Source: an uncultured Latescibacterota bacterium (lineage in GTDB: Bacteria; Latescibacterota; UBA2968; UBA8231). From it: a stretch of DNA of 64,000 nt. The DNA is taken from assembly GCA_951813615.1 (NCBI GenBank), contig OX638377.1, positions 6,049,739-6,113,738 of the forward strand, written 5' to 3'. The notes beneath the pieces are model-generated. The model was not told the origin of the DNA and ran no database searches. It saw only the letters and a program-made list of their open reading frames with translations. Position numbers and translations under genes: made by a program. This document shows, piece after piece, positions 29,543 through 35,146 of this stretch (positions within the stretch are counted from its first letter, which is position 1; each line of letters starts with the position of its first letter).

Positions 29543-30835
29543 ATGGCCACAGATCTGTCCCAACACATCGCCGATACGCTGCTAATCGACACGCACGAAC
29601 ACCTGCGCAAGGAGCGCGACTGGGTCGAGGACGGCCCGGACATTTTGCAAGACCTTTTTGGCAACTACGTGCCCGCCGATCTGATCGCCGCTGGCGCTAC
29701 TCCCGAGGACTTGCACAAGCTCAACGACGCCTCCGACCCGGACTTTGGCGCACGCTTTGACGGCATCTGCTCGGCCTTTGCGGCCATTCGCTTCACCGGC
29801 TACGGCGAGGCTGTGCGCATTCTCGCGCACGAGATCTACGGCATGGCCGATTTTAGCGAAGACGAGCTGTACAAGGCGCAAGAGAAGCTCAGTGCTTGGC
29901 GTCAACCCGGCGGGCGGCACGAACTGCTCAGCCAAATAGGTCGGCTGGACCACGTGCAGACCGACGACTTCTGTTGGCCCTGCCTGCCCGACGAATCCGG
30001 CGTGGACTTCTTCCTCTACGACTTGTCTTGGGCCGCCTTTTGCAATGGCCAAATCGACGGCGAGGCCATTGAGCAAGAAACCGGCGTGGCCGTCACCGAC
30101 TTGGCTAGCCTCAAGCAGGGCATGGAAGCCATCTTCGACCAGCACGGCCCCCATGCCATCGCGGTCAAAGCCCAGCACGCGTACAATCGCACGCTGCGCT
30201 GGGAAGAGCGCAGCGACGCCGACGCCGAGCGCGTGCTCCAACACCTACTCCAGGGCGAAGAACTCGACGAGCCGAGCCGATTGCTGTTGGGCGACTGGTG
30301 CTGGGCGCGGGGCACCGAGCTGGCGATTGAATACGAGCTGCCGTTCAAGATCCACACTGGCTACTACGCTGGCAACGACCGCATGCCTGTTGACCGCATC
30401 AAAAGCGGCAACCTCTGCCCCTTGCTGGCCCGCTATCTCGATTGCCGCTTTGTGCTGATGCACATTGCCTATCCCTATTCCAACGAATTAGTCGCGCTGA
30501 CCAAGCACTACCGCAACGTGTACGCCGATCTCTGCTGGGCGTGGTCCATTGATCCGTACACCTCGTGCGACTTTGTGCGCCGCTTTATCCACGCTGCTCC
30601 CGCGTCCAAGCTCTTTGCCTTTGGCGGCGATACCGGCTGGCCGACCAGTTCGGTGGCCTACGCGATCCAGGCGCGGCGTTGGCTCACCCGCGCCCTCCAA
30701 GGCGAGATAGACGACGGCCTGCTGACCGAGGCCGAAGCCATAGAGCTGGCGACCCGCTTCATGCGCGGCAACCAAGAGGCCTGTTTTGACTTGGCTGGGA
30801 CGCGGCAGGCGCTGCGAGCTTCAGCGGCTGGCTAG
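29543..30835 (+). CDS. Amidohydrolase family protein (PF04909-like)
   Basis: 430 residues. IDTHEH supplies the HxH metal ligands; KIHTGYY, VLMHIAYPY and FAFGGDTGWP give the later His and Asp ligands of a metal-dependent TIM barrel. The closest groups are uronate-isomerase-like and decarboxylase-like amidohydrolases, so either a decarboxylation, hydrolysis or isomerisation is possible. ATG 29543 was chosen for GGAG 9 nt upstream; the reading from 29507 is also open. Confidence 0.85.
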   Translation: MATDLSQHIADTLLIDTHEHLRKERDWVEDGPDILQDLFGNYVPADLIAAGATPEDLHKLNDASDPDFGARFDGICSAFAAIRFTGYGEAVRILAHEIYGMADFSEDELYKAQEKLSAWRQPGGRHELLSQIGRLDHVQTDDFCWPCLPDESGVDFFLYDLSWAAFCNGQIDGEAIEQETGVAVTDLASLKQGMEAIFDQHGPHAIAVKAQHAYNRTLRWEERSDADAERVLQHLLQGEELDEPSRLLLGDWCWARGTELAIEYELPFKIHTGYYAGNDRMPVDRIKSGNLCPLLARYLDCRFVLMHIAYPYSNELVALTKHYRNVYADLCWAWSIDPYTSCDFVRRFIHAAPASKLFAFGGDTGWPTSSVAYAIQARRWLTRALQGEIDDGLLTEAEAIELATRFMRGNQEACFDLAGTRQALRASAAG

Positions 30836-31155
30836 GTTGCGCCAGGGTAGATCGGTTGGCGAGAAGAACGGAGCCGACAGGACAGGTCGCGTCGCCAGTG
30901 ACCGGAGACAGCAAGTACCGTCATTCTCGTGGAAAAACGTCACCCCGTGCCCCGACACGGGGCGGAAATCCAGAGTGGTCAAGAGCAAACGCGATCCAAG
31001 AATGTGTCGCTTTGTATGACCGCTTACTTGTCTCATTTTTCTCATTCATAAGTAATTGTTTTCAAATAACTAATATAAATTAGTACAATAAAAAAGCATA
31101 AAAAATGTCAGCAATTTTGACAAGAAAAATGACAGCGGTGTCCGACGTGCTTGAC
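30836..31155. other. Gene-free AT-rich stretch at the left edge of an accessory island
   Basis: The first half is still GC-rich and carries a palindromic element at 30943-30962. From about 31000 to 31130 the composition switches to strongly AT-rich, with a perfect ACTAAT-ATAA-ATTAGT dyad at 31069-31084. No ORF with coding character and no RNA gene could be recognised. Confidence 0.6.
30943..30962. repeat. Short palindromic element (CCCCGTG ... CACGGGG)
   Basis: A perfect 7-bp stem CCCCGTG/CACGGGG with a 6-nt loop CCCCGA. It is flanked by CGTCA on the left and CGGAAATCCAG on the right, which is the pattern of dispersed palindromic elements of the GTCAT...GGAATCC type found in many bacterial genomes. 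No U-tract follows, so it is not an obvious terminator. Confidence 0.55.
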
Positions 31156-31490
31156 CTATTGAGACTTGCACGGGGGGCAAACAGATAGGGTGAATAGGGG
31201 TTTAGTTGCATCACTCAGCACGAAAACTAGGTCGCTTGGAATCGTCGGTGGCTCTAGCCACGCAATCGGGATGTAATTCCGCCGTTCGGAACTCACCTTT
31301 GGGACGACCAGAAACGGGGCATCGGGGATGACGTTGACGTGGTAAAGCGTCGGTGTTTCCGCCAATTTGCGAGTCGGTGGGCCCTTGCTTTGCTGACGAA
31401 AGGCGCGTAAGTCCCGCACGCGCTCACGCAAAGCCGGTGCCTGCCGCAGCGGGTCGGGCGGTGCCTCGCCGAGCCACAGAATCCAACAGC
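31156..31490 (-). pseudogene. Relic of an MmeI-like type IIL methyltransferase (target-recognition region)
   Basis: The frame reads WILWLGEAPPDPLRQ, then ERVRDLRAFRQQSKGPPTRK, then YHVNVIPDAPFLVVPKVSSE and YIPIAWLEPPTIPSDLVFVL. This is the characteristic block preceding and within the target-recognition domain of MmeI-family fused methyltransferase-restriction enzymes. Homology ends near 31200 and the catalytic and nuclease parts are missing, so it is a fragment. Its upstream end meets a second relic in another frame. Confidence 0.72.
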
Positions 31491-31790
31491 CGGACGCCCA
31501 TGAAGCACAGAAATGCGCCGAGGTTGAAGCTGTGGGGCGTACATGGCGGACTCTATCACTTCGACGAGCGGCTCGTTCTCGTCGCGTATCTGGTCGAGCT
31601 AGTCGTAGTGGACGTTGTCGCCCCAACGCCACTGGTCGGGAAACTTGCCGCCCTTGCTCTCGCGGTTGCGGCCTGTGTTGAAGGACGGGTCGGTGGCGAT
31701 GAGGTCAACGGTCGATGAGTTCATGCCGCGCAAGGCGGCGAGGTTATCCATGTGGAAGATGGTGCCGGGAGAAAAATTGAGTTGGGTTAT
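31485..31790 (-). pseudogene. Relic of a site-specific DNA (adenine) methyltransferase
   Basis: Reads FHMDNLAALRGMNSSTVDLI then ATDPSFNTGRNRESKGGKFP, then an in-frame TAG at 31601-31599, LDQIRDENEPLVEVIESA, and after a frame change near 31531-31540, SFNLGAFLCFMGVRLLD. This matches the N-terminal motif IV region of N6-adenine methyltransferases of the D-P-P-F type, with the second Pro changed to Ser. A perfect AAGGAGG lies 4 nt before ATA at 31790, so the original ATG start has probably mutated to ATA. At least three independent lesions make it a pseudogene. Confidence 0.75.
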
Positions 31791-31825
31791 AAAACCTCCT
31801 TGGGGTTGGGGGATGGGGTGATTTT

Positions 31826-33256
31826 TTATTTTTTTGGTGAATACATCGGTTTTCTAGGAAGATATTCGGCGTCTAGAAAGGTCTCAGCCCAATCCGACTC
31901 TTGACAACCAAGCAATTTTACAATCAGCCGCTTTAGCAAGATTCGCGTCCTTTCTGTCTCGTAGTATAAGACCTCATCACAAATGGTCTCTGCGCTGTGA
32001 ATGAGCGCATTGCGAAAATCTATAAAAGCTGGCTTGCTTCCAGCCTTATCTGAACGATACAGATTTTCCCACTCAACATCATATTTATTAAAAAGGATTT
32101 CTAACACAGGCCATAGACGATACCCACCATTTTTATATTTATATTTTTCAGTTTCTTTCTCATTGTTCTTCGCATACATGTCCTTTAATTGTTCAAGAGC
32201 TAGGAAATAGAGTATAAATTTTTGTTTAGGGGGCTCTGTCCTCGCCGTTATCCAGTTGCCCAAGGGAATAGATAGGTCAAATTTTTCTTTTCTACGATCT
32301 CGTAGAGCCTGCACAGCCTTTGCAAGAAATCCTTCTAAAAATTTCTTTCTTTCCCCGTAATCAGGTCTGATTTCATCAGCGTAGTCTCTTTCTAATGACC
32401 GGACATGATACACATGCTTATCTGAAGAATAAAACTTCCAAGAAAACCAATCAATCCAGCACCCAGCTACCATGGATGACACTAGGAGTATATCATTCAC
32501 AATCTCAATCGCTAGAGACTGAAACTCGTCGTCTGACCTTTCTTTGGGCGACTCATTGGTTTTGACAGTAATTGAAGGGTAGTAATCTGATATTTCAAAT
32601 CCATGTTCATCGTCAGACACGTATTCTGGACTTACTCGGATATTAAGAAGGTTGCATATATCTATATTTAGAGGCCTATAAAAGTGGCGTGTTTCAATGG
32701 CTTCTGTGCCTTTCTTCTCCATCATCTCAAGCAAGTCTGGGTCGAAACATGCGTTGCCGGGTTCTATTTTTTTCCTAAAGTGCCTTTCTGTCCAAAGCAC
32801 TGGCGAAAAAAAGGCTCTAGGGCCTGAAAGCGCAAAAGAAATCAGTCTTTCATCTCGATTTGCTCCTTCATCTCGATTTGCAATTCTATGATAACTAGTA
32901 AATTCTTTAACATCAAAGGAAGCAATGTCTTCCACCCTCCTGCTCTCGTATCGAGGCGGCGGTGAAGATGCTTGCCTAATAAAAACCCCATTTGCTTCGT
33001 ATTTTGTATCCTCTTCTGTATTCTTGGATCGAATTTTGGCAAACCCGTCCTGATGCATCATTTGAATAAGATTCATAAGTTCGTCGATGCGGCCAATTTC
33101 CCCCTTGATATGCCCTCGAATAATGCTAGGTTTTCGAGTCGAGTGCCTGACCTCGAAAGACCAATCCTTGAGCACCTCCTTTTGTTCATGCTCAATAATT
33201 CCTTGGAATTTATGCACCTTTTCAAATAGGTGCGTATTTATCTGGTTGATATTCAT
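31826..33256 (-). CDS. Hypothetical protein with C-terminal HEPN-type RNx3H motif (candidate defence protein)
   Basis: 476 residues from ATG 33256, which has a perfect AAGGAGG 6-7 nt upstream. The gene is clearly lower in GC than its neighbours, a sign of transfer. The N-terminal 350 residues match no family I recognise and are rich in charged and aromatic residues. Near the C-terminus, FIDFRNALIHSAE contains R415-N-A-L-I-H420, the RNx3H catalytic motif of HEPN RNases, followed by TRILLKRLIVKLLG, a helix pattern like that of ApeA-like HEPN domains. There is no signal or membrane segment. It sits between methyltransferase relics and a transposase remnant, in a defence-island setting. Function is inference. 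Confidence 0.6.
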   Translation of the reverse strand: MNINQINTHLFEKVHKFQGIIEHEQKEVLKDWSFEVRHSTRKPSIIRGHIKGEIGRIDELMNLIQMMHQDGFAKIRSKNTEEDTKYEANGVFIRQASSPPPRYESRRVEDIASFDVKEFTSYHRIANRDEGANRDERLISFALSGPRAFFSPVLWTERHFRKKIEPGNACFDPDLLEMMEKKGTEAIETRHFYRPLNIDICNLLNIRVSPEYVSDDEHGFEISDYYPSITVKTNESPKERSDDEFQSLAIEIVNDILLVSSMVAGCWIDWFSWKFYSSDKHVYHVRSLERDYADEIRPDYGERKKFLEGFLAKAVQALRDRRKEKFDLSIPLGNWITARTEPPKQKFILYFLALEQLKDMYAKNNEKETEKYKYKNGGYRLWPVLEILFNKYDVEWENLYRSDKAGSKPAFIDFRNALIHSAETICDEVLYYETERTRILLKRLIVKLLGCQESDWAETFLDAEYLPRKPMYSPKK

Positions 33257-33294
33257 GCTAATCCTCCTTAGAAGCCGTCTGAAAACTCTATTTT

Positions 33295-33455
33295 TCATTT
33301 GATCCGTTTGAGTAGCAAGTGGATCATGGCAATCTGAATCAAGGCTTCACTATGGTGGGTCAACACCTCATAATCTCTCGCATGTCGGCGAAAATTCATC
33401 AACCACGCAAACGTACGCTCAACGACCCACCGGCGTGGTAACACCTCAAAGCCGT
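33295..33455 (-). mobile_element. IS5-family transposase C-terminal remnant
   Basis: The minus strand reads [20 protein letters not shown], then [20 protein letters not shown] and [11 protein letters not shown] before TGA at 33297-33295. This is the C-terminal catalytic Glu region of IS5/IS427-type transposases ([13 protein letters not shown]). A TAG lies directly before it, so only about 50 codons survive. No terminal inverted repeats could be identified. It marks past insertion in the accessory island. Confidence 0.8.
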
Positions 33456-33494
33456 GCTAGGGATTGCGGATACACTGCGAGTAGATTGTCCACG

Positions 33495-34001
33495 CTACGG
33501 CCCTTCACCATTGGTTTCTTCTTCACCAGCTAGTGCGAGTACGCGACGCCGGATTCCATCCGACATCCACATGCCGGTGCTTTCCAGCAAATCCACGTGG
33601 GGGGCAATGCGTTCGACCAAACCTTGCGATTTCGCTTCGATAAGAACCTTCAGCGTTCCCCACACATTGAGCCCGGCGGCCTCTGCGATACGCCGTGCCT
33701 GTCTGTCGTCCAGCAGAACGGTACATTCAGGATGCTCCAACGCCAAAGCCAGTACGGCCAATTCTCCCACCCCTAAATCCAGATTCAACCACTCGGGCGG
33801 AATGACACGGGGGTCAACGATTTTGAGCCACTCGTAGCTTTGCGGATCGGGAACGTCGTACCCTCTTTGTCATCCTTCCGACAACTCCTGCGCCACGGCT
33901 TGGGGAATCTGGACTTCATTGCACAGAATGGGTAGCCAACTCAAGGCGTCAATGCGATAAAGATACAGCAGCGGGGACGTGTTGCTGATGAACTCAGACA
34001 T
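33495..34001 (-). pseudogene. DUF3368 PIN-type toxin with a nonsense codon (TGA at 33872-33870)
   Basis: In one frame from ATG 34001, 168 codons read MSEFISNTSPLLYLYRIDAL, then VAQELSEG-stop-QRGYDVP, then NLDLGVGELAVLALALEHPE and TVLLDDRQARRIAEAAGLNV. This is a full DUF3368 toxin (ISNxSPL opening, GEGE/GVGELAVLALA core, DDxxAR acidic motif) broken by TGA at codon 44, where homologues usually have Arg; a CGA to TGA transition would explain it. The ATG lies inside the antitoxin stop region (8-bp overlap). The toxin is presumably inactive unless the TGA is read through or re-initiation at 33788 gives a partial product. Confidence 0.8.
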
Positions 34002-34245
34002 GCTCGCGTTCTAGGTCATTCAACTCCGTCTCAAGCGGAAAGACCTTGTAGCGATCAAGCGTCAACAGAAATTCCACGCGCGCCATCCCGGCGAGTTCCG
34101 CCGCTCTCCCGGACGAAAGACGGCCAAGTTCGTAGAGTTTGACCGCGGCCAGCATACGGAGTTCACGTGCAAAGGCACGCTCGTCGGTCTTCTCGGCTAG
34201 CAGGACACTCTCTGGAACATCGATTGCGATTTTCCGCGTTGTCAT
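33994..34245 (-). CDS. UPF0175 family antitoxin
   Basis: 83 residues: IAIDVPESVLLAEKTDERAFARELR at the N-terminus, LYELGRLSSGRAAELAGMARVEFLLTLDRY as the helix-turn-helix, the standard UPF0175 layout. It overlaps the DUF3368 toxin gene by 8 bp. Start ATG 34245 has AGGGGAAATG context with AGGAGC nearby. It is intact although its toxin is broken. Confidence 0.87.
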   Translation of the reverse strand: MTTRKIAIDVPESVLLAEKTDERAFARELRMLAAVKLYELGRLSSGRAAELAGMARVEFLLTLDRYKVFPLETELNDLEREHV

Positions 34246-34337
34246 TTCCCCTTGCTCCTTCGATCAACGGAGTGCGAACTGAGGCCACTTCATATTTGGT
34301 AGCGCCCCATTGAGCATCGGTTAGGTCTATAAGCTCA

Positions 34338-34357
34338 GTAAGAGCGGAGACTCTTAC
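34338..34357. other. Short hairpin between the antitoxin and SDR genes
   Basis: A perfect 7-bp stem GTAAGAG/CTCTTAC with a 6-nt loop, in the 169-bp gap. It lies about 60 nt beyond the SDR stop and about 95 bp upstream of the antitoxin start. No U-tract follows on the minus strand, so either a weak terminator or an operator is possible. The rest of the gap is unremarkable. Confidence 0.35.
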
Positions 34358-34414
34358 AATAATATGACTGGAATATAACTAGCGCTTATTTATGACAACG
34401 CTTCTAGTAACGCC

Positions 34415-35146
34415 CTACTGAAACAACTGCACCGTCGGCTTGATCACCAGGAGAGGCACGCAGGCGCGGGGAGGCAGCGCGGCGACGAAGAGCGCGGCTT
34501 GGGCCATCTCTTCGGGTTGCAGCATGGCGGCCCGGCGTTCGGCGCTGACGGGTTCGGGCCGCTGGGCTAAAATCGGCGTCTCTACCTCGCCGGGACAAAT
34601 CGCGCAGGCGCGGATGCCGAACTCGACCTCTTCCTCGTTGATCGAATTCGTCAGCGCCACCGCCCCGTGCTTGGAGGCCGAATACGCGGCACCGGCCAGC
34701 TTGCTGGCTCGCAGGCCGGCGATAGACGAAATGGTGATGATGAGGCCGTCGTTTTGTTGCCGCATCCCTGGTAACACCGCTCGCGCCATGTTGTACACCC
34801 CGGTGAGATTAATGGCAATGGTCTGGTCCCAGTCCTCGGGTGCCACTTCGCCGACCGCGCGCGGATTGGTGTTGATGCCGGCGTTGTTGACTAGCACATC
34901 GACGGCACCCCACTCGGCCTCGACAGCGGACGCTAGGGCCTCGACAGCTTCGTGGTCGGATACGTCGCAGGAGTGGAGTAGGATCCGGTCGGTATCGAGG
35001 CCGGCGGCTGCGGCTGCGAGCGGCTCAGGGCGTCGCCCGACAAACGCCACCCTCGCTCCGGCGTCGGCAAAACCACGCGCTATGCCCGCGCCGATTCCAG
35101 TACCTGCGCCGGTTACTACCACAACTTTATCGACAAACTGACCCAT
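34415..35146 (-). CDS. Short-chain dehydrogenase/reductase (SDR)
   Basis: 243 residues of the classical SDR type. TGAGTGIGAGIA is the TGxxxGxG cofactor loop, LVNNAG the NAG motif, ISSIAG the catalytic Ser region, and YSASK the YxxxK. C-terminal PGEVETP follows. Cofactor preference is not certain. It is the last gene of the lipid operon and its ATG shares one base with the stop of the OYE-type gene (TAATG), so it is translated by coupling. Confidence 0.92.
   Translation of the reverse strand: MGQFVDKVVVVTGAGTGIGAGIARGFADAGARVAFVGRRPEPLAAAAAGLDTDRILLHSCDVSDHEAVEALASAVEAEWGAVDVLVNNAGINTNPRAVGEVAPEDWDQTIAINLTGVYNMARAVLPGMRQQNDGLIITISSIAGLRASKLAGAAYSASKHGAVALTNSINEEEVEFGIRACAICPGEVETPILAQRPEPVSAERRAAMLQPEEMAQAALFVAALPPRACVPLLVIKPTVQLFQ

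Follow-up and report, generated by a model that had tools for sequence, protein, structure and literature searches.

P0001, a 476-residue open reading frame in a 64-kb window (the whole stretch of DNA analysed), on balance probably encodes a solo abortive-infection protein with an ApeA-like architecture, in which a C-terminal HEPN RNase would be joined to a different, beta-rich sensor. Its preliminary description as a candidate undescribed defence effector draws support from a hotspot location, a conserved RNxxxH motif, a helical C-terminal model and sub-threshold matches of relatives to HEPN_Apea, while no significant match to a HEPN fold was obtained. The gene was found intact where it had first been placed, reading from an ATG at 33256 with no internal stops (Table 1). 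It was likewise confirmed to be GC-poor (40.5% vs 59.6% for the whole window), to follow a perfect Shine-Dalgarno sequence, to lie in an island context, here a variable chromosomal hotspot between shared flanks, and to belong to no placeable family, with zero matches in Pfam, PADLOC and NCBIfam at E<=10. Searches with P0001 of the PDB sequences and of PHROGs returned nothing meaningful and nothing usable, respectively. An in-frame ATG at 33298 was rejected as the start, being inside IS DNA and missing from the ortholog.

Table 1. Features of the P0001 locus (positions in the window) and cargo found between the same flanking genes in sibling genomes
Feature	Position	Strand	Basis or remark
P0001, HEPN-motif protein, 476 aa	31826..33256	-	Intact ORF, relatives, dN/dS 0.44
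N-terminal region, residues 1-299, presumed sensor	32360..33256	-	Low-confidence model; no ApeA_NTD1
C-terminal HEPN-like domain, residues 300-476	31829..32359	-	RNxxxH, helical model, sub-threshold HEPN_Apea in relatives
Shine-Dalgarno sequence AAGGAGG	33263-33269	-	Also present in ortholog
IS5-type element, 3' remnant	33271..33456	-	93% to full genome copies; DDE_Tnp_1 C-terminus
DUF3368 (PIN-type toxin family) gene	33495..34010	-	One in-frame TGA at 33870-33872
UPF0175 protein, presumed antitoxin	33994..34245	-	Intact, adjoins DUF3368 gene
Methyltransferase N-terminus remnant (truncated, site-specific DNA methyltransferase)	31599..31822	-	DPSFNTG motif read from sequence; no Pfam match
MmeI-type IIG restriction-methylation enzyme remnant	31132..31485	-	58% over 118 aa to intact MmeI of L002
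Cargo in G043			MmeI-type IIG and HEPN gene
Cargo in G048			Dsr1 (SIR2), MmeI, UPF0175
Cargo in G050			MmeI, Dsr1, SoFic-type Fic protein
Cargo in G049			AIPR/AbiU protein with UPF0175

The RNALIH motif noted in the preliminary description is present at residues 415-420. A motif of the form RNx3H arises by composition alone in 4.2% of P0001 shuffles and is thus weak evidence on its own. However, its Arg, Asn and His are kept in all four relatives of P0001 that were found, the aligned motifs of the five family sequences being RNALIH, RNALIH, RNKLVH, RNALVH and RNDLFH. Such conservation, with one relative only about 20–25% identical, would not be expected by chance. Homologues lacking the Arg and His had been named beforehand as evidence against the proposal, and every relative retains both. 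An ortholog with 92% identity occupies the same chromosomal site in a sibling genome (G043; locus L002, Gemmatimonadetes bacterium SB0661_bin_36), a paralog (L005, 44% identical) lies elsewhere in that same genome, and a further homolog (L004/L006, 29–40%) was found in G029, a genome from another family of the class. The G029 gene is interrupted by a contig break; its truncation was dismissed, as the overlapping ends of L004 and L006 indicate one gene split over the break. A frameshift or stop within the paralog was also dismissed, the TAG in question being its terminal stop. The family is patchily distributed, occurring in 3 of 64 genomes of the phylum.

A tblastn search with the C-terminal fragment L006 led to a plasmid protein of Xanthomonas campestris (E=7e-6). 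This hypothetical protein of 477 aa, WP_274361204.1, carries RNDLFH at the aligned position and was matched by the family HMM with E=7.9e-9, against a best value of E=1.2 among 2,000 shuffles. It resembles P0001 in its near-equal length (477 vs 476 aa) and in a HEPN-like C-terminus with an RNxxxH-type motif, but its N-terminal region is not alignable and the identity of about 20–25% is confined to the C-terminus. The Xanthomonas plasmids were reached by L006 only; phages, viral contigs and plasmids searched with P0001 or the full-length family gave nothing. The same fragment is matched by phrog_22870, a PHROG of unknown function (E=4.4e-5). The Xanthomonas gene (L066:4119-5549) stands alone between mobile elements, namely transposons.

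The structure prediction proposed earlier for the C-terminus was run on residues 300-476 and produced an all-helical model (pLDDT 77, pTM 0.75); the absence of a HEPN fold there, which had been named as counter-evidence, is not what this helical model indicates. The best TM-scores in Foldseek were those of HEPN structures (4nqf, 3o10, 7ae6 and 2hsb; TM 0.41–0.47), but no match was significant, the best E being 0.54 and the HEPN entries having E of at least 2 and TM below 0.5. A search of a viral structure library also gave nothing significant. At the sequence level no HEPN model, HEPN_Apea (PF18739) included, matched P0001 itself, whereas two relatives matched HEPN_Apea below its curated cut-off of 24.4 bits: L006 with 21.4 bits (E=3.7e-4, covering 17-133 of the 136 profile positions) and the paralog with 16.5 bits (E=0.012). 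The PADLOC Cas13-ApeA model gave E=0.0038 in one relative. The family HMM scored the HEPN domains of true ApeAs from the phylum no higher than shuffles. Profile-profile comparison of the family with ApeA groups was weak, although two true ApeA groups likewise failed to match each other in it, so that the test has little power. The conserved RNxxxH, the sub-threshold HEPN_Apea matches in two relatives and the all-helical model make a HEPN fold at the C-terminus of P0001 likely, though not proven; the earlier reading of an ApeA-like HEPN C-terminus thus stands on motif, relatives and helicity but obtained no significant fold match.

ApeA is a solo anti-phage protein with a mostly-beta N-terminal domain of about 300 aa fused to HEPN (PMC3710099), and the family shares with it the single-gene character, a length of approximately 480–530 aa and a layout in which a predicted beta-rich N-terminal portion of some 300 aa precedes a HEPN-type C-terminus bearing RNxxxH. 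In the model of P0001 strands predominate in residues 12-286, with a low-confidence mean pLDDT of 60.9; owing to this low confidence Foldseek of the full-length protein was uninformative. Unlike ApeA, none of the five family sequences matched ApeA_NTD1 (PF18862) at E<=10, although seven genomes of the phylum contain genuine ApeAs that this model detects. In genomes that hold the family, the true ApeA is encoded by a gene of its own; that of the P0001 genome itself (L021, G000:C1:426360-427730) has ApeA_NTD1 at E=4.4e-24 together with HEPN_Apea and sits at a distant locus. As both domains that define ApeA failed to be detected, P0001 is not filed as an ApeA and may be ApeA-like in action at most. 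No sequence relation to any sensor was found for the N-terminal region, and the sensing half, as presumed here, is one that matches no family in the databases searched. The MAE_28990/MAE_18760-like HEPN group (PF18737), members of which may also have beta-rich N-terminal domains (PMC3710099), matched L006 weakly (E=0.043, 14.4 bits against a cut-off of 26.8) and less well than did HEPN_Apea.

The interval containing P0001 is bounded on one side by an amidohydrolase-like gene, which ends at 30835, and on the other by an SDR gene with its 3' end at 34415. These flanks are common to sibling genomes (L055-L060) and the cargo between them is very different, with defence genes in several genomes (Table 1). 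No defence gene was found between the same flanks in G041 or G046, the latter having a large gene of unclear role. The 30835-34415 interval and its counterparts in siblings are a genus-level defence hotspot in an uncultured lineage, and it is this setting that speaks most strongly for P0001 having a role in defence.

Alternatively, P0001 could be a HEPN RNase accessory of a restriction-modification (R-M) system, as PrrC and RloC are beside R-M genes, restrained by the methyltransferase or MmeI and released once restriction is blocked. The ortholog is directly preceded by an intact MmeI-type IIG gene, and the methyltransferase remnant, retained in both orthologous loci, starts about 30 bp past the HEPN stop, with its own Shine-Dalgarno sequence and ATA where a start is expected. 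There is also precedent in the ApeA of epsilonproteobacterial R-M operons, for which R-M-controlled HEPN suicide was proposed (PMC3710099). However, no R-M gene adjoins the paralog or the G029 homolog, MmeI occurs at the hotspot without the HEPN gene in G048 and G050, and the HEPN ORF of the window is intact whereas both R-M pieces there are broken. The R-M-linked HEPN proteins of PrrC/RloC type have a constant R-M partner or a fused ABC ATPase; no constant R-M partner was found across the loci of the P0001 family, and no ATPase domain in P0001. An R-M accessory role is thus considered unlikely.

P0001 as the HEPN toxin of a toxin-antitoxin pair, with a UPF0175 or HicB/DUF433-type protein as antitoxin, is highly doubtful. 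UPF0175 and DUF3368 genes do lie upstream on the same strand, and downstream of the G029 homolog come DUF433, HicB and HicA, but the occurrences share no partner gene, and UPF0175 is already paired with its usual partner DUF3368 and is absent beside the ortholog. Moreover HEPN-MNT toxins are typically much smaller than the 476 aa of P0001. Neighbours of the HEPN gene differ by locus, being MmeI in G043, a 517-aa HEPN-like protein beside the paralog, and DUF433 with HicBA in G029, and across these three loci in the phylum no constant partner gene was found. The lack of a constant partner points more to a solo, single-gene system than to an accessory of R-M or one half of a toxin-antitoxin pair. 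The 517-aa protein (L008:12178-13731, minus strand) itself has a HEPN-like C-terminus with FRSRIAH and no family match.

Immediately upstream of P0001 the ancestral DNA has been replaced. Homology with the ortholog ends at 33270, and the terminal repeat of an IS5-type element, several full copies of which are present elsewhere in the genome, ends at 33271, abutting the target TAA (33268-33270) exactly where the ortholog has CCCATAAGGAGG. The IS thus ends 14 bp ahead of the start codon, and most of the IS has been lost together with the ancestral upstream DNA. It follows that the Shine-Dalgarno sequence is ancestral and the promoter is not. A sigma-70-like site was sought on the P0001 strand and none was found; expression would rely either on read-through from same-strand upstream genes or on the IS end. 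The earlier suggestion that the gene is still expressed is accordingly not supported.

By single pairwise estimates, P0001 and its ortholog have a dN/dS of 0.44 and a dS of 0.09; the corresponding values in four flanking genes are 0.09–0.16 and 0.19–0.35. The higher dN/dS and lower dS are consistent with a mobile, fast-evolving gene exchanged later than its chromosomal background. The relaxed dN/dS, the IS end in place of ancestral DNA and neighbours that are remnants or interrupted genes might instead mean that P0001 is an island gene in decay that no longer functions in this strain, its upstream region lost to the IS and its ORF persisting by recency. This is quite improbable, as P0001 is full-length and comparison with the ortholog shows purifying selection (dN/dS <1), the Shine-Dalgarno sequence is intact and read-through from upstream genes is possible; decay in this strain would, moreover, leave the function of the family in the sibling unaffected.

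If P0001 is a one-gene abortive-infection protein, the C-terminal HEPN domain of some 170 residues would dimerise, and Arg415 and His420 from both chains would form the active site. The beta-rich N-terminal region of approximately 300 residues, presumed to be the sensor of a phage signal, would keep the HEPN domain of the dimer inactive until it senses a phage-made signal and releases the active site. The freed HEPN domain would then cut RNA, most likely tRNA, halting translation and growth ahead of phage multiplication. Cleavage of tRNA by a HEPN effector has been described for a type IX retron (PMC13405049) and for Cas13a (PMC11042736). The trigger of ApeA is deoxydinucleotides, going by the title of a reference in PMC13405049.

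P0001 is a credible candidate HEPN solo-effector with a presumed sensor half unlike those catalogued. More tentatively, it may belong to a distinct HEPN effector family that extends from sponge-associated bacteria to Xanthomonas plasmids and combines one conserved HEPN module with interchangeable beta-rich sensors, which would be unrelated to ApeA_NTD1 and so probably respond to a different phage signal. If confirmed, P0001 would represent one more single-gene suicide-type RNase defence, and a cousin of ApeA with a different N-terminus would offer a direct test of whether the N-terminal half reads the signal. The interval in which it lies also provides an example, from an uncultured lineage, of a defence hotspot that can be reused.
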